The notes under the pieces are model-generated. The model was not told where the DNA came from. It searched no databases and saw only the letters and a program-made list of their open reading frames with translations. Positions 1 through 11,649 of a DNA stretch of 64,000 nt are shown here, piece after piece. The DNA comes from Collinsella sp. TF06-26 (lineage in GTDB: Bacteria; Actinomycetota; Coriobacteriia; Coriobacteriales; Coriobacteriaceae). The position numbers and the translations under genes were made by a program. Location of the stretch: contig NZ_NKXR01000004.1 of the NCBI RefSeq assembly GCF_002232035.1, positions 1 through 64,000 on the forward strand, written 5' to 3'. Position 1 is the stretch's first letter. The number at the start of each line of letters is the position of its first letter.

Positions 1-25
1 GCTTACGCTGATGAAGGGTGATGAG
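1..25 (-). repeat. Invertible-site copy 1 (exit motif of HsdS)
   Basis: This encodes the LITLHQRK exit motif on the minus strand. It matches the reverse complement of the stretch at about 994-1018 with one mismatch over about 25 bases, so copies 1 and 2 bound the 1-1018 segment as an inverted repeat. The copy may extend past the window edge. Confidence 0.75.
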
Positions 26-532
26 ATGGTCAAGTTGCTTGAACATGGACCCTATTGCAGTCTGCTCATCCTTTGAAGGAAAGGCGAATTCTCCGGCCGC
101 CAGACCCTTTCCAGATATCTCTAGGAAGGTTGATCCAGAAGCTTTTTGTTCAGCGAACTTCTTGATTCGATCGGTCATGGAGTAGACGAAATACACATCG
201 GTATCATCGTTCACGACTAAAGACTGGAAGCCTTGGTTTGTACATGCTGACCTGCGAAGGATCGCTGTATTGCCAATGCCCGCAGGGCTTGTAAAGAGAA
301 TTGTTTTACCAGCTGGAAGCAATGTTGCCGAGCAGCTATCGTAACCAGCCTGGGTTATCCTTCGAACACTCCTGTCGGCGTACACCTGCTCGCCTAATTC
401 GGCGGGCGAATACCAGTCTATATCGCCATCCCAGTACGCATCGTTATTGGTGCTCGGCGTGCCGCCGCCCACAATAGTGGCGACATCTCCCAACTTACGC
501 TGTTCCCAAGCGGTAATTTGAGCCAGCCAACT
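1..532 (-). CDS. hsdS: Type I restriction specificity subunit HsdS, TRD cassette (partial)
   Basis: The open frame runs off the left edge. It encodes one target-recognition domain (TRD) in the type I S-subunit layout: an entry motif AWEQRKLGD, then VGGGTPSTNN and WYSPAELGEQ, then LAAGEFAFPSKDEQTAIGSM and an exit motif LDHLITLHQRK. S subunits select the DNA sequence bound by the HsdM2S methylase and the HsdR complex. No ATG with a ribosome site precedes WEQRK; an in-frame stop lies at 533-535, so this may be a silent donor cassette or start at a weak non-ATG codon. It is head to head with a second cassette at 518-1096 and shares its entry and exit repeats. Identity is from the S-family motifs; whether it is expressed cannot be judged here. 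Confidence 0.8.
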
Positions 533-553
533 TCATCTTGGGAACAGCGTAAG
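494..553. repeat. 17-bp inverted repeat between the two hsdS cassettes
   Basis: CTTACGCTGTTCCCAAG at 494-510 is the exact reverse complement of 537-553, with 26 nt between them. Each arm encodes the WEQRK entry motif of one divergent TRD cassette. Such shared entry repeats are used for TRD exchange in shuffling hsdS loci. Confidence 0.8.
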
Positions 554-1096
554 TTCTCCGATCTGACCGATAGGGTTTCCATTCAGTCAAGCGATTCCGA
601 TTTGCCTCAGGTTGAATACGAGGACATCATTCCCGGTGAGGGCACGCTGAACAAAGATTTGCGCGACAAAGATGGCGGCAAAACAGGAATTAAGTTCTAC
701 GCCGGAGATGTTCTGTACGGGAAGCTTCGTCCTTATTTGATGAATTGGCTATACCCGCAGTTCAATGGTGTAGCTGTTGGTGATTTTTGGGTCCTTAGGG
801 CTACAGAGTGTGACAGTTCATTTTTGTATCGGCTGATTCAAACGAATAGCTTCCAAAGGCTCGCAAATGTATCTTCGGGCTCTAAGATGCCTCGTGCAGA
901 TTGGAAACTGATTTCGCAATCGTTCTTCGCCGTGCCTGCCGATCACGCCGAGCAGAAAGCAATTGCGAAGAGCTTAGCCGAGCTTGACTCCCTCATCACC
1001 CTTCATCAGCGTGAGCCACAATTTACTGATATGGGTTATATGAGAGTAGAAAGGGCTCTCATAACAATGTCGATGTCCTTGTTTTCAAGCTCTTGA
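518..1096 (+). CDS. hsdS: Silent HsdS TRD cassette, opposite orientation
   Basis: The reading frame opens at TTG 518 with no ribosome site. It holds a second, different TRD: SSWEQRKFSDL entry, EYEDIIPGEGTLNKD, YGKLRPYLMNW, SSGSKMPRADWK, then EQKAIAKSLAELDSLITLHQRE. Family resemblance ends at LITLHQRE, about 1014; the last 27 or so residues read into DNA antisense to the recombinase and are probably meaningless. With about 165 useful residues it is a half S subunit; complete ones have two TRDs and about 400 residues. It points away from the cassette at 1-532, so it probably supplies an alternative specificity after inversion. Confidence 0.75.
   Translation: MSQPTSSWEQRKFSDLTDRVSIQSSDSDLPQVEYEDIIPGEGTLNKDLRDKDGGKTGIKFYAGDVLYGKLRPYLMNWLYPQFNGVAVGDFWVLRATECDSSFLYRLIQTNSFQRLANVSSGSKMPRADWKLISQSFFAVPADHAEQKAIAKSLAELDSLITLHQREPQFTDMGYMRVERALITMSMSLFSSS
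1000..1017 (+). repeat. Invertible-site copy 2
   Basis: CCTTCATCAGCGTGAGCC lies at the end of the plus-strand TRD cassette. The exact reverse complement occurs at 1992-2009, so the recombinase gene is flanked by 18-bp perfect inverted repeats. A near-identical inverted copy is at 1-17. Confidence 0.8.
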
Positions 1097-1965
1097 ATGA
1101 CGTGAAGATAAGTTTCCTGGGTGGTAGTCATGCTTGCATGGCCGAGCCTTCTTGATACGCTCGCTATGGATACGCCAGCAAACAAGAGAAGTGATGCATG
1201 TGTGTGGCGCAAGCCATGGACGGATATAACTGGTACCCCGACGTTTTTGCAGTGACGCGCTAGAACACTGTTTGCTGTTGAGTTATATACCTTGCCCTTA
1301 ACGAATATTGGCTCAGACGGGGGGAGGTTCCTCAGTAGACCGGAGAGTTGCATGATTAGTTGCCAATCGAGCTGAACTTTCCGCACTGACGAGGCGTTTT
1401 TTGTGGGGACAAAGCCGCCGCCATTCTTGTAGTCCCAGGTTTTGTTTACGGAAAGCGTTTGATGGGCGAAATCGAAATCCTCGGGGGTAAGGCCTAGCGC
1501 CTCGGAGAAGCGCAGGCCTGTTTTGGCGACGATAAGGATGAGCCAGTCCCAACTTGGCTCGCTTGTTGACAAGTCAAGATCGCCGAGCATGGCATGGAGT
1601 TCGAACTGGTTGAGGTATTTAATCTTCTTTGCCCGCGGTTGCTTACCCTTGATGATTGCCTTTCGCGTAGGATCGCGCGGAATGAGTCCCTCGTCGACAG
1701 CGTCTAGGATCGCTCCTTTCAGCTGATGGTGAAAATCCATGGTCGTTTGCCGCTCGTGATGCTCAGCATAGCCATTTATGAGCCGCTGGTACGAGGTTCG
1801 GTCCAAATCCTTGATCCTGAGGTTAGGAACAAGCTTGGCTAGCCAAGATTGGGTGAGCCGATATTTCCCCATCGTGACTTCGCGGATGGCCCCTTCTTTA
1901 TAGACGCTAACCCATTGCGAGTAGTAATCGCAAAAAAGAGAGTCTTCGGTGATGGCAATGAGCAT
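1036..1965 (-). CDS. Tyrosine recombinase (phage-integrase/XerC-D type)
   Basis: A 309-residue tyrosine recombinase. The N-terminal SAM-like DNA-binding region (about 1-110) precedes a catalytic domain with TGLRFSEALGL (first Arg), HGLRHTHASLL (His-x-x-Arg), LGHASMTTTQETY (His and the nucleophilic Tyr). Known members cut and rejoin DNA at short inverted sites. It lies between hsdR and the hsdS cassettes and is flanked by 18-bp inverted copies of the HsdS exit repeat, so it is the likely invertase that exchanges the TRDs. A purine-rich ribosome site (GAAGGAGG) precedes the ATG. It could instead be a relic of a larger element, but no phage genes adjoin it. Confidence 0.88.
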   Translation of the reverse strand: MLIAITEDSLFCDYYSQWVSVYKEGAIREVTMGKYRLTQSWLAKLVPNLRIKDLDRTSYQRLINGYAEHHERQTTMDFHHQLKGAILDAVDEGLIPRDPTRKAIIKGKQPRAKKIKYLNQFELHAMLGDLDLSTSEPSWDWLILIVAKTGLRFSEALGLTPEDFDFAHQTLSVNKTWDYKNGGGFVPTKNASSVRKVQLDWQLIMQLSGLLRNLPPSEPIFVKGKVYNSTANSVLARHCKNVGVPVISVHGLRHTHASLLLFAGVSIASVSRRLGHASMTTTQETYLHVIQELENKDIDIVMRALSTLI

Positions 1966-1991: not shown

Positions 1992-2009
1992 GGCTCACGC
2001 TGATGAAGG
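1992..2009 (-). repeat. Invertible-site copy 3, downstream of hsdR
   Basis: GGCTCACGCTGATGAAGG, the exact reverse complement of 1000-1017, lies 14 nt past the hsdR stop. Read on the minus strand it still spells a vestige of the exit motif (IILHQRE), which suggests an S-gene end once stood here. Confidence 0.75.
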
Positions 2010-2022
2010 ATGATGATGCCGC

Positions 2023-5000
2023 TCACTCGTCGATGTCGAAGCCGCCTTTCAGGATAAATCTCTTGAGAAGCGCCGCAGCCCGGGTGTTCACCTTGAATGG
2101 CGGCAGGCTCTTGCCTTCCTTCTGCTCGAAGAAAGCTTTGGCGCGGACTTTGTCAACCGAGTCTTTCAGGTCGTCGAAGCGTCCGAATTCGTTTATGTTC
2201 GATTCAGTCAAGTCAAGTGCCACCATGGCGGTGAGAAGGTCGCCATCTATGCCGAGAGCTTCGACAACGCGCTGGACCTGAGCATTTTTGGCCTTGCAGG
2301 CATATGACGTAATGTAGTCCCTCAGCGTCATGCCCTCCTCAAGGGTTGCATCGCCGCGCTCCACGTCGTGCAGAAACAGCTCCGCGAAGCGCTGGTCGTC
2401 TTGGCTCAAAGACGCAAAAGAACGGTGGAGCTCCTCGCGCGCCGCCGCGAGGCCCTCATCATCCTGTTCTAGGCACTTTAGCCATTTCTCAAAGTTCGAG
2501 TTCATGTAATCGCTGTCAATGAGGCCTGTGTCGATTTCCGTAATGTGCCCGTCCAACTCGTAGGGTGCATCGGGAGCATCGCCCGAGGTACCGCCAGAGA
2601 AGAGCTCTTTGTAGCGCTGCACGAGGACAAGATAGGTTCGCTCGTCGATGACGGGTTGGACGAGAACGGACTCGCTGAGTTGCGAGCCCTCTTTCGGTTC
2701 TTCCCTGAACTCGTAGGTATCCTGTTCCCATGTGAAGCCCTGTACCTTCGCGGCCTCAAGGAACTCGTTAAGCTCGACGAATTCCTTCGCGAACTTGCGC
2801 CTGGCCTCCTGCGATGCGGGAAGCTTCGAGAGATCTCCCACGCCAGCGGCCTCGAAAACCATGAGTATTTCCTGGAGGCGCGTATCCATCAACGCAATAT
2901 TCTCCGGCAGCTTCTGGACGAACATATCGAGCGGGCGGTCTCCCGAATACAGCTTCACCGCCGCTTCGATATAGCCCTTCATAGTATGGGGTCGACGGTA
3001 ATAGCGAATCGTGCCGAAAGGCTTGTCGGGCCCAAACAGGCGGTTCGTGCGGCTGAACGCCTGGATGATGCTCTCGTAGTCGATTACCTTGTCGAGATAG
3101 AGCGTGTTAAGCCATTTGGAGTCGAAGCCCGTGAGCATCTGATCAACCACGATGAGCAGGTCGATGCGGGAATCACGGTTGGTGTCGACGTTGACGTAAG
3201 GTTTCTTGTGGGACAGACGAGCCGAGATATCCTTCTTCATGGCGGGCCATGTGGGAATAGTGAATTCCTGACTGTATGCCTTGTTATAGTCTTCTATGAG
3301 CTCAACCAGAGCGTCTTCCTTTACCGTGGAGCCGGCGTTGTTGTCGACGCTCGGGTCGAAAAGAGCAGTCACCCTCATCTGCGGGGCGCGCTCCTTGAAG
3401 GCTCGGTAGTAGTCGATCGCCTCTGGGATGGAGCTCGTCGCCAGGATTGCATGGAACTTGTTGCCGTGGGAGAGCACCGGAAAGCGGCGCAGGATGTCCT
3501 CGACAACCTTTCCGTGATGCGGGGTGTCGGGCCAGTATTGGGCGCGAGTAAGGAAATCCTCGATTCCCTTGATATGGTTACCGGCGCCATCGACCATCGG
3601 CCCCATGGGAACCTTTGCCGAGTCCTTATAGTAGTAGAAAACTTTGCTCTTTCGGTCGTCGGAAATGGCTTCGGCGACGGTTGCGGCTTTCGCCTGCTCT
3701 AGGGCAACCGCTTCGCGCACGTCATAGTCATCGAACGTCGTCACCATGTAGGGGTCGAAGCCCAGCACGTTGCCGTCGCGGATGCCGTCGGCGATGCTGT
3801 ATCGGTGCAGGCATTCGCCAAACACCATGGCTGTGGTCGATCCCTTCTTCTGATTCTCGTCGAGGATTGGCGTTCCCGTGAAACCGAAGAAGAGGGCATT
3901 GGAGAAGGCGCGGCGTATGTCCTGGAGCATGTCACCGAAGGTAGATCGGTGGCACTCGTCAATGATAAATACGATACGTTTGCCAGCCAGGCGGTCGAGC
4001 TCGGCTTGGGTGATCCCCGTCTCGCCGGCCTTCAAGTTGCTCATCTTTTGGATAGAGGTGACGATAAGGCGATTCTTGGGGTCGTCACTAGCGAGCTTGG
4101 ACTTGAGGACCTGCGTATTCTCAGTGCCCTGCACGTCGTCGGCGTCGTCAGCGAAGGAGCGGTACTCCAAGAGCGACTGCGTGCCCAACTCGATGCGGTC
4201 CATTAGGAACACGACCTTGTCGGCATCATGGGAGTCAGCGACAAGTTGGGCCGATTTAAAGCTGGTCATGGTTTTACCGGAGCCGGTGGTGTGCCAGATA
4301 TAGCCGCCGGGACGACCGGGCGTGCTGCTGTGCCGCGGCTCGTCCCATTTGCATCTGCGAACCTTATCCGAGATGGCCGCGGCGGCATAGTACTGGTAGC
4401 TACGCATGACTTTTAGGCAGCCATCCGAGCTGTCGGCCACGGTATAGAACCCAATGAGCTGATGTGCCATGGGAATGGAGAGCAGCGTCGAGGTGAAGCG
4501 CTTCCACTCGTCAGTACCGGGCTTGTCGCCCGCGCAGACGGGCTCGTTGTTGAAGTCTTCCCAGTGGAAGAAGAAGTTGGGGTTAAACGCACCCGTTCCG
4601 GGGTTGGCGAAGTACCGCGCCTCGTCAGGGGTCATTCCCACGAAGATCTGCACCAGGCGGAAGAGTCCCGTGAACACACCTTCGTGCGCGTATTTTTCAA
4701 TCTGGCCGGTTGCCTGGCTTACGGGCACGCCGCTGCGCTTAAGCTCGATATGGATGACGGGCATGCCGTTGATGAGCAGGCATAGATCACCGCGACGATC
4801 GTTAAGGATTTTGCTTTTTGCGGGATAGATTGGCTGTTGGGCGATTTGGTACCGGCTTTGACCTGCAGCAATCTCTTGACGGTCGTAGATTTTCAGGCTG
4901 ACTTCCTTGCCCAGGTGAAGGACGTCATCAGGGTTGTCGCGGGTGATGGCAATGGTTTTGCCGTTGATGAACCCGTTGAGCGCCAGCGGGGTCTTAAGCG

Positions 5001-5220
5001 TTTCGATCTGTTCGATGACCTGTGCCATTTCACCCTGCGTGAGTGGACAGCCATTCAGGCGGTCTATGCCGGCATTGTTGTTAAACAGGATCTTCGCCCA
5101 GTTGCAGATAAGGTCCTGTTCGGTAGGGTAGCAAAGAACACCTTCCGCATCGTCCCAACCGTGCTGCTTCAACACAGCGATAACCGCTTCTTCGAACGAA
5201 GCTTCTTTATCGAAAACCAT
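2023..5220 (-). CDS. hsdR: Type I restriction enzyme R subunit
   Basis: A 1065-residue HsdR, the motor and nuclease subunit. The N-terminal PD-(D/E)xK nuclease shows RRGDLCLLINGMPVIHIELKRSG (Asp, then Glu-x-Lys). Superfamily 2 helicase motifs follow: Walker A TTGSGKTMTSF at about 312-322, motif II IIDECHRSTFG, FGFTGTPI, then LIVVDQMLTGFDSKWLNTLYLDK and QAFSRTNRLFG. In this family HsdR joins HsdM and HsdS, translocates DNA and cuts at a distance. Length and motif order are normal and the gene appears intact. hsdM is absent from the window; it probably lies beyond the left edge with the expressed hsdS. Transcription runs toward the recombinase and the cassettes. Confidence 0.95.
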   Translation of the reverse strand: MVFDKEASFEEAVIAVLKQHGWDDAEGVLCYPTEQDLICNWAKILFNNNAGIDRLNGCPLTQGEMAQVIEQIETLKTPLALNGFINGKTIAITRDNPDDVLHLGKEVSLKIYDRQEIAAGQSRYQIAQQPIYPAKSKILNDRRGDLCLLINGMPVIHIELKRSGVPVSQATGQIEKYAHEGVFTGLFRLVQIFVGMTPDEARYFANPGTGAFNPNFFFHWEDFNNEPVCAGDKPGTDEWKRFTSTLLSIPMAHQLIGFYTVADSSDGCLKVMRSYQYYAAAAISDKVRRCKWDEPRHSSTPGRPGGYIWHTTGSGKTMTSFKSAQLVADSHDADKVVFLMDRIELGTQSLLEYRSFADDADDVQGTENTQVLKSKLASDDPKNRLIVTSIQKMSNLKAGETGITQAELDRLAGKRIVFIIDECHRSTFGDMLQDIRRAFSNALFFGFTGTPILDENQKKGSTTAMVFGECLHRYSIADGIRDGNVLGFDPYMVTTFDDYDVREAVALEQAKAATVAEAISDDRKSKVFYYYKDSAKVPMGPMVDGAGNHIKGIEDFLTRAQYWPDTPHHGKVVEDILRRFPVLSHGNKFHAILATSSIPEAIDYYRAFKERAPQMRVTALFDPSVDNNAGSTVKEDALVELIEDYNKAYSQEFTIPTWPAMKKDISARLSHKKPYVNVDTNRDSRIDLLIVVDQMLTGFDSKWLNTLYLDKVIDYESIIQAFSRTNRLFGPDKPFGTIRYYRRPHTMKGYIEAAVKLYSGDRPLDMFVQKLPENIALMDTRLQEILMVFEAAGVGDLSKLPASQEARRKFAKEFVELNEFLEAAKVQGFTWEQDTYEFREEPKEGSQLSESVLVQPVIDERTYLVLVQRYKELFSGGTSGDAPDAPYELDGHITEIDTGLIDSDYMNSNFEKWLKCLEQDDEGLAAAREELHRSFASLSQDDQRFAELFLHDVERGDATLEEGMTLRDYITSYACKAKNAQVQRVVEALGIDGDLLTAMVALDLTESNINEFGRFDDLKDSVDKVRAKAFFEQKEGKSLPPFKVNTRAAALLKRFILKGGFDIDE

Positions 5221-8871: not shown

Positions 8872-11649
8872 CTACCCGCGGTGACGGGCGCGGCTGTACG
8901 GCGTATCCACCATAGGCAGATCCGGACGCAGCTTGCCGTCAAACGCGCGGTAGGCGTTCTGTACGGCGGGCGCCGTGGGAATCGTGGCGATCTCGCCGAT
9001 GCCCTTGCCGCCGAATGCCACGGGCAACAGCTCGTCCTTCTCCACGTAGATGGCGTGGATATCCGGAATCTCGGGCGCACGGAACAGCCCGAGCGTGCCG
9101 TACCTTGCCTGGGGTACGCAGTCCTTGAGCGGCCAGTCCTCGGTCAGCGCATAGCCCATACCCATGAGCACGCCGCCTTCGATCTGACCCTGGATGGAGA
9201 TGGGGTTGACCACCTTGCCGGAATCGTGTGCGGCATAGACCTCGCTCACGCGGCCGTCATCATCCAGAATGACCACATGTGTGGCAAAACCGTAGCAGAT
9301 GTGGCTCTTGGGGTTGGGAACATCGGCGCCCAGCTTGTCGGTCGGCTCCAGATACACGTAGCCAAACTCGCATCCCTCGAGCGCCTTGATGGTGGCCGCA
9401 GGGTCCTGAGGATGCATACCCTGGCCGGCGACGAGTTCCTGTGTGCGCAGCTGGTAGGCGCGACCGTCGTCGTACTCGATCTTGACGCCGTCGCCATGCG
9501 CGCTCACCGGAGCGGCGGGCGCAGGCTTGCCGGCCTCGATGCCAACCATGGCGTCGCGCAGCAGGAAGGCGGCACCGCGCACGGCCTCGCCGGTCACGAC
9601 CGTCTGACGCGAACCAGACGTGGTGCCGGAGTCGGGAGCGTTCTCGGTGGAGCACTCGCCGTTGGCAATGCAGCGAAGCGGCAGACCGCAGGCCTCGGCA
9701 ACGTCCTGCAAAAAGACCGTGTTGCAGCCCTGGCCGATGTCGGACGTGGCGGCATAGACCACGGCGCGGCCATCCTCGACGCGAATCTTGCAGCGGCCGG
9801 CATCGGGCAGACCCACGCCCACGCCGGCGTTCTTCATGGCGCAGGCAATGCCAGCGTGTCCGGGATGCGCGTAGTAGGCATCCTTGACCTCGAGCAGCGT
9901 CTCCTTAAGCGCCGTGGAACAGTCGGCAATCTGGCCGTTGGGCAAAACCTCGCCCGGCTCGATGGCGTTACGGTAGCGGATCTCCCACGGGTCCAGGCCG
10001 ACCTTCTCTGCCAGCAGGTCGATAAGGCTCTCGAGCGCAAACTCGGACTGACAAACGCCAAAGCCGCGGTACGCGCCGGCGGGCGGGTTGTTGGTGTAGT
10101 AGCCAAAACCGCGGATGTCAGTGTTCTGGTACTTATAGGGGCCAACGGCATGCGTGCAGGCGCGCTCGAGCACCGGGCCGCACAGCGAAGCGTAGGCGCC
10201 GGTATCAAAGTTGATCTCGCAGTCCAGACCGGTAAAGTTGCCCTCGGCGTCGCAGCCCAGCGTAAAGGTGCCGGCCATGGCGTGGCGCTTGGGATGGAAC
10301 GCGAGCGACTCGGCACGCGTGAGCTTGCACTTCACAGGACGCTGGAACTTATATGCGGCGAGCGCGGCCAGGTGCTGGACCGAAACGTCCTCCTTACCGC
10401 CAAAGCCGCCGCCCACGAGCATGGTCTCGACGACCACGCGCTCGGGCTCGTTGTCCCAGCCAAACATGTGGGCACACTCTTTGCGCGTGTCGTAGGCACC
10501 CTGGTCGGTCGACTGCACCTTGACGCCGCTCTTGTACGGGAAGGCAACGGCGCACTCGGGCTCCAAGAAGGCATGCTCGGTAAAGGGCGTGGTAAAGCGC
10601 TGCGTCACGGTAAACGCGCTCTCTGCCAGCGCCTTGGCGGCGTCGCCGCGCGTCACATGGCGGCTCTGACACACGTTGTCCTTGAGCTCCACCGTGTTGC
10701 CAAAGGCAAAGAAGCTGTCGTGCAGGCGCGGGGCGTCGGCAGCCCTGGCCTCGACAATGTTACGCACGGGCTCCAGCGGCTCGTAATCGATCCTGACGAG
10801 CTTCTTGGCCTTCTCGAGCGTCGCCTCGTCCTCGGCAACCACCAGCACGATGGCGTCGCCCACGCAGCGGGTGATATCGCCCGCCGCGATCATGACGTCC
10901 CAGTCCTGGATAAGGTGGCCGACCTGGTTGACCGGCACGTCCTCGGCGCGCAAGATGCCCACCACACCGGGCAGGGCCTCGGCCTTGGAGGTGTCAATGG
11001 AGAGCACGCGGGCGCGCGGGTACTTGGAGCGCACGGCGCTGGCATAGGTCAGGCCCGGCTGGTCAAGCTCGTCGATGTCGTCGGGATACTTGCCCTCGCC
11101 GAGCACCTTCTTGCGCACGTCGATGCGGAAGGCGCGCTTGCCCACGCCGTAGTTGTCGCCGCGCTCCAGATCCTCGTCGATCTGCTTTTCGCCGCGGAGC
11201 ACCGCAGCGGCCAGCGAGATGCCCTCGATGATCTTCTTGTAGCCGGTGCAGCGGCAGATGTTGCCGCGAATGGCGTACTTGATCTGCTCCTCGGTGGGTT
11301 CGGGATCCTCGGCGATGAGCGCTGCACCCGCCATGACCATACCCGGGATGCAAAAACCGCACTGCACGGCGCCCACGGCGCCAAAGGCGTACACAAAGGC
11401 CTCGCGAACGTCCTGGGGCAGGCCCTCGACAGTCACGATGTTGCGGCCGGCGGCAAGGGCGGTGGTCAGCACGCAGGCCTTGACGGCCGCACCGTCCACA
11501 TGAATGGTGCAGGTGCCGCAAGCACCCTCGGAGCAGCCGTCCTTGGCGGAATGGATGTGCAGGTCGTCGCGCAGGTAGCGCAGCAGCGGTTTGTTTTGGG
11601 TCGTCGTGTGCTCGACGCCGTTAACGGTAAAAGTGAATTCCTGTGCCAT
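8872..11649 (-). CDS. xdhD: Molybdenum hydroxylase, selenium-dependent xanthine dehydrogenase type
   Basis: A 925-residue fused protein. Residues 1-80 form a plant-type [2Fe-2S] domain (Cys39, 44, 47, 59), about 85-160 the second [2Fe-2S] domain (Cys97, 100, 132, 134), and about 170-925 the molybdopterin domain with VGGGFGGKED near 410, GAYRGFGVCQ, DIGQGCNT near 637 and catalytic GGKGIGE near 878. This two-in-one layout, without a FAD domain, is that of E. coli XdhD and the Se-dependent XDH family, which hydroxylate purines or similar heterocycles. Partners polyferredoxin, YgfK, SsnA and a purine permease follow on the same strand upstream. Substrate and the presence of labile selenium are inferred from neighbours, not seen. 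Confidence 0.88.
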   Translation of the reverse strand: MAQEFTFTVNGVEHTTTQNKPLLRYLRDDLHIHSAKDGCSEGACGTCTIHVDGAAVKACVLTTALAAGRNIVTVEGLPQDVREAFVYAFGAVGAVQCGFCIPGMVMAGAALIAEDPEPTEEQIKYAIRGNICRCTGYKKIIEGISLAAAVLRGEKQIDEDLERGDNYGVGKRAFRIDVRKKVLGEGKYPDDIDELDQPGLTYASAVRSKYPRARVLSIDTSKAEALPGVVGILRAEDVPVNQVGHLIQDWDVMIAAGDITRCVGDAIVLVVAEDEATLEKAKKLVRIDYEPLEPVRNIVEARAADAPRLHDSFFAFGNTVELKDNVCQSRHVTRGDAAKALAESAFTVTQRFTTPFTEHAFLEPECAVAFPYKSGVKVQSTDQGAYDTRKECAHMFGWDNEPERVVVETMLVGGGFGGKEDVSVQHLAALAAYKFQRPVKCKLTRAESLAFHPKRHAMAGTFTLGCDAEGNFTGLDCEINFDTGAYASLCGPVLERACTHAVGPYKYQNTDIRGFGYYTNNPPAGAYRGFGVCQSEFALESLIDLLAEKVGLDPWEIRYRNAIEPGEVLPNGQIADCSTALKETLLEVKDAYYAHPGHAGIACAMKNAGVGVGLPDAGRCKIRVEDGRAVVYAATSDIGQGCNTVFLQDVAEACGLPLRCIANGECSTENAPDSGTTSGSRQTVVTGEAVRGAAFLLRDAMVGIEAGKPAPAAPVSAHGDGVKIEYDDGRAYQLRTQELVAGQGMHPQDPAATIKALEGCEFGYVYLEPTDKLGADVPNPKSHICYGFATHVVILDDDGRVSEVYAAHDSGKVVNPISIQGQIEGGVLMGMGYALTEDWPLKDCVPQARYGTLGLFRAPEIPDIHAIYVEKDELLPVAFGGKGIGEIATIPTAPAVQNAYRAFDGKLRPDLPMVDTPYSRARHRG

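Follow-up and report, generated by a model that had tools for sequence, protein, structure and literature searches.

The left end of the window, the 64,000-nucleotide stretch of Collinsella sp. TF06-26 analysed in this study, carries two silent hsdS cassettes bounded by short repeats, a tyrosine recombinase gene and hsdR. Base 1 of the window is the end of contig C34 in an assembly of 2.26 Mb and 41 contigs. Cassette B (8–510, minus strand, 168 amino acids) and cassette C (537–1009, plus strand) are each a startless hsdS half that is open and in phase. The initial annotation had described two different TRD cassettes standing head to head, and both stretches indeed match Pfam Methylase_S above its cut-off of 22 bits (69.4 bits for TRD B, 24 bits for TRD C), with cassette C also matching PADLOC Specificity_I at 2e-36. 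Neither contains an in-frame hsdS start, again as first described; the sole start-bearing N-terminus is on another contig, C10, whose TRD A differs from both B and C as these differ from each other. A search for relatives of TRD B in IMG/VR found none.

The cassettes face each other across their entry repeats, which were initially given as a 17-bp exact pair (494–510/537–553) and extend in full to 19 bp. The copy of cassette B (492–510, minus strand; CTTGGGAACAGCGTAAG) is the same as the Listeria site agcttgggaacagcgt and encodes WEQRK; that of cassette C (537–555, plus strand) is its exact inverted copy, 100% complementary across a spacer of 26 bp (511–536). The exit repeats likewise form an inverted pair of about 25 bp, as proposed, but the partner of 1–25 lies at 992–1016, 2 bp from its originally assigned position, and the two are complementary at 24 of 25 positions inside a 34-nt stretch matching at 88%. 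The exit repeat of cassette B (1–25, minus strand; TCATCACCCTTCATCAGCGTAAGC on that strand) sits at the contig end, and the same 25 bp open contig C10; that of cassette C spans 992–1017 on the plus strand as an inverted copy of 1–25. The exit repeat TCATCACCCTTCATCAG encodes LITLHQ, and a core, CAGCGTAAG, is common to entry and exit repeats. A third exit repeat (1992–2016, minus strand), absent from the initial annotation, lies immediately upstream of the recombinase start and marks a cassette slot, lying between the recombinase gene and hsdR, that has been emptied here but is occupied in C. stercoris, among others. The longest exact inverted repeat within 1–1018 is 21 bp, compared with a maximum of 11 in 60 first-order Markov shuffles, and a pattern search of the whole genome returned four exit and three entry repeats, every copy at the hsd locus.

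The tyrosine recombinase reported to adjoin the cassettes is the 309-amino-acid product of an open reading frame at 1036–1965 (minus strand), which matches Phage_integrase at 65.1 bits (cut-off 27.1; 8.9e-18) and likely inverts the cassettes. Its catalytic residues R152, H250, R253, H276 and Y286 are invariant in 17 homologues. The family is widespread, with at least 562 confirmed homologues among the matches listed, and both repeats occur near 56 of the 80 best homologues. A role at the entry and exit sites is suggested by linkage and position, the catalytic residues, the homologues and precedent. The gene is itself flanked by inverted exit repeats (992–1017 and 1992–2016) and may be invertible as well. 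Beyond it lies hsdR (2023–5220, minus strand), encoding an EcoR124-like restriction subunit with PF12008 EcoR124_C, HSDR_N and SWI2_SNF2 matches that passes the TIGR00348 cut-off (322 versus 284.6 bits).

The start-bearing hsdS on contig C10

A search for hsdM and a start-bearing hsdS, which the initial annotation had expected left of the window, located both on contig C10, where the entry and exit repeats of the window recur. The first 25 bp of this contig are those of the window, and it encodes hsdM (315 bits against the TIGR00497 cut-off of 242.8). Behind hsdM, hsdS starts at a GTG codon preceded by GGGAGG, and its N-terminal half contains TRD A and an exit repeat. The contig is tied to the window only through the shared repeat and the layout in relatives. 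Fusing the hsdS start on C10 through the entry repeat to either cassette, B or C, leaves the reading frame intact. A pattern search and probes made from the C. stercoris hsdS tail found no second TRD or C-terminus of this hsdS in the assembly, a weak negative in that the tail may have diverged. The predicted HsdM (555–3116 of C10) has 853 amino acids, about 370 of them past the TIGR00497 match (residues 3–485), and some related loci align to it over residues 1–484 only.

Contigs C10 and C34 both end at the same base of the 25-bp repeat. This shared stop fits, without proving it, a mixed culture in which reads have several possible continuations; active switching may also explain the assembly break at the locus. 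Contig ends do fall near the recombinase more often than expected (8 of 55 within 1 kb, against 1.6, for contigs of at least 20 kb), an enrichment that is only suggestive, not being significant for contigs of at least 50 kb.

Cassette arrangements in related genomes

We compared 18 regions around recombinase homologues and collected 210 cassettes from related loci, 122 of them silent. Most of the regions are organised in a similar way; the largest number of cassettes is seven (L044), and the complete C. stercoris genome has six (L045). Because 118 of the 122 silent cassettes have an open, in-phase reading frame, they appear to be maintained as coding sequence, as sometimes-expressed sequences should be.

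The codons of the repeats are near-fixed in 88 expressed-type copies (GAA in 88, CAG in 87 and the arginine codon CGT in 82), whereas the arginine codon of the RF motif, adjacent to the entry repeat, uses all six codons in expressed copies. Since one arginine codon is near-fixed while its neighbour is free, this comparison argues for conservation of the repeats at the DNA level, as recombination sites should be. As a control we took 26 Collinsella Methylase_S loci with hsdS and no recombinase, in none of which either repeat was found; the protein motifs are absent there too, so that the codon comparison, and not this control, separates DNA-level from coding conservation.

Both window cassettes have close counterparts in other slots. 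Cassette B is identical at 492 of 503 positions (97.7%) to a C. stercoris cassette, and cassette C at 440 of 473 to one in locus L062 and 431 of 473 to one in L056 (91–93%). In each case similarity stops at the boundaries of the two repeats, and the neighbouring slot is a different one; in L062 the facing-repeat spacer beside the entry repeat is partly conserved too. The clearest natural experiment comes from two genomes (G010 and G014) that are 99.8% identical in hsdR and 99.9% in the recombinase gene: a single cassette (485 of 485 positions) is silent between hsdR and the recombinase gene in G010 and stands behind the hsdS start in G014. With the recombinase gene unturned, this difference is what two successive inversions would give. 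One TRD also occupies different halves of hsdS in different loci (L045 slot 1 versus L044 slot 2, 493 of 512 positions), and the entry repeat precedes the second TRD of hsdS as well.

At 10413–10961 of locus L043 (in G014, a near-complete genome), hsdS consists of a start, one TRD and an exit repeat followed directly by the recombinase-proximal flank; either an apparent excision has left an HsdS with a single TRD, or the assembly has collapsed at this point. Two identical copies of a TRD cassette are present within one locus in L049 (7118–7629/9013–9524), L066 (7119/12769) and L096 (10957/15185). Inversion alone cannot duplicate cassettes, and copying by gene conversion or unequal exchange must therefore also occur.

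A probable shuffling array and its alternatives

We consider it highly probable that the locus is a recombinase-driven TRD shuffling array, an inverting Type I restriction-modification system of which the window holds the silent end. A single hsdS, the one that starts downstream of hsdM on C10, would be expressed, and the other TRDs would be kept in half-gene cassettes that lack a start and are flanked by the same pair of short repeats. The adjacent tyrosine recombinase would recombine inverted entry repeats with each other and inverted exit repeats with each other, such that two successive inversions would trade one TRD for another with the reading frame intact, and each swap would give HsdS a new recognition sequence and alter both methylation and restriction. 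The sequences themselves show the anatomy of the locus, the shared sites, the preserved frame and the different slots that cassettes occupy in relatives. The initial proposal of invertible hsdS cassettes with a dedicated recombinase accordingly remains the best reading, given the repeats at hsdS and hsdM on C10, the slot changes in relatives and the Listeria precedent. Inverting 1–1018 by itself, however, would only flip two silent cassettes, and specificity would change only by exchange with the hsdS on C10. We infer that this recombinase carries out the exchange, that it operates in the present strain and that the methylome is altered.

The strongest competitor, in our judgement improbable, is that RecA-dependent homologous recombination or gene conversion between hsdS copies moves the cassettes and the recombinase is a bystander. 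Gene conversion would leave identical TRDs twice in one genome, as in L096 and L066, and the longer pneumococcal repeats IR2 and IR3 do recombine without PsrA, if at a much reduced rate (PMC7096588). The shared stretches at issue here, however, measure 17–25 bp, short for RecA-dependent exchange, and homology ends with them; moreover, synonymous positions within the entry repeat are conserved across phyla, and the recombinase accompanies both repeats in the 56 of 80 loci noted above.

A still less probable account treats the cassettes as defunct relics left by an old duplication of hsdS beside a decaying recombinase, with nothing moving now. Such decay could leave cassettes lacking start codons, the empty slot at 1992–2016 and an expressed hsdS that is interrupted in the assembly, but it fits poorly with a full-length recombinase retaining its catalytic residues, with open and in-phase frames in 118 of the family's 122 silent cassettes, or with cassette placement that differs between very close genomes. 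That the recombinase is a phage or conjugative-element integrase present by chance, as its matches to phage integrase families (PHROG 1) and its 47–65% identity to integrases in Listeria and Enterococcus phage records might suggest, is scarcely credible and largely refuted by conserved linkage: phage and conjugation genes are absent between hsdR and hsdS, and the recombinase stands beside hsdS cassettes and hsdR in Coriobacteriia, Bifidobacterium and Clostridia.

Beyond the shuffling array itself, there is about an even chance that Coriobacteria, Bifidobacterium and Clostridia of the gut share an open-ended form of it, in which one recombinase serves many single-TRD cassettes that all carry the same two short sites and fit either HsdS half. 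If so, six or seven cassettes would provide about 30–42 ordered pairs of different TRDs, n(n−1), far above the four to six alleles known from the systems described so far, and might also yield half subunits with a single TRD.

Known inverting systems and significance

The mechanism is already known from Listeria and pneumococcus. In L. monocytogenes ST8, four arrangements of the hsd locus arise by inversions at agcttgggaacagcgt and ctatcgctcttcatcagcgtaagttagat (PMC4783014), sites that contain the core of the Collinsella entry and exit repeats. The Listeria ST8/CC8 locus (LMR479A_0528-0532, PMC4783014) resembles that of Collinsella in comprising hsdR, hsdM, hsdS, an integrase and an inverted hsdS. 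It differs in having two oppositely oriented hsdS genes and four variants, whereas Collinsella has single-TRD cassettes, up to seven in relatives, whose TRD fits either half of hsdS. PsrA, the tyrosine recombinase of pneumococcus, has been shown to invert hsdS genes both in vivo and in vitro (PMC4948785, PMC7096588), and its locus, cod/SpnD39III, is likewise a Type I restriction-modification system with silent inverted hsdS, a tyrosine recombinase in the locus and a short repeat, IR1; the likeness of PsrA to the Collinsella recombinase is one of locus description rather than sequence alignment. Unlike the two short repeats of Collinsella, the pneumococcal repeats measure 15, 298 and 85 bp, and they yield six active alleles. 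For Mycoplasma pulmonis, the HvsR tyrosine recombinase is described, as cited in PMC4948785, as inverting hsdS and changing specificity in the hsd loci, a comparison by description with a different organism and layout.

A REBASE survey of inverting Type I systems (PMC7394358) covers the same general class, including several with a recombinase gene, and its main text names neither Collinsella nor Bifidobacterium. Our literature search combining Collinsella, hsdS and inversion returned no relevant paper, and the Collinsella case is apparently undescribed in the literature searched. Its most distinctive trait would be the many single-TRD cassettes usable in either HsdS half.

This gut Collinsella can probably reshuffle the DNA sites methylated by its restriction-modification enzyme. 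Were the system active, cells within one Collinsella clone would differ in their methylomes and in their phage restriction ranges, with consequences for phage–host dynamics in the gut, for transformability and for the comparison of strains.

A point against the shuffling array is that other members of the recombinase family work at loci of a different kind. We had considered Ligilactobacillus salivarius plasmids as a case of strain-level hsdS inversion and rejected them, the inversion there being that of an adhesin with other repeats. On these plasmids (NZ_CP114511, CP114516, CP114529 and CP114514; loci L169–L172), a recombinase homologue of 55% identity adjoins an adhesin with a GbpC/Spa domain. 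Comparison of strains S35 and S40 shows a 2115-bp segment (L169 7781–9895) that is perfectly inverted between 29-bp inverted repeats with a TGAATCCAAGTGATAAGATATTTGAGGTG core, and the same recombinase family thus appears to switch a surface protein in L. salivarius.
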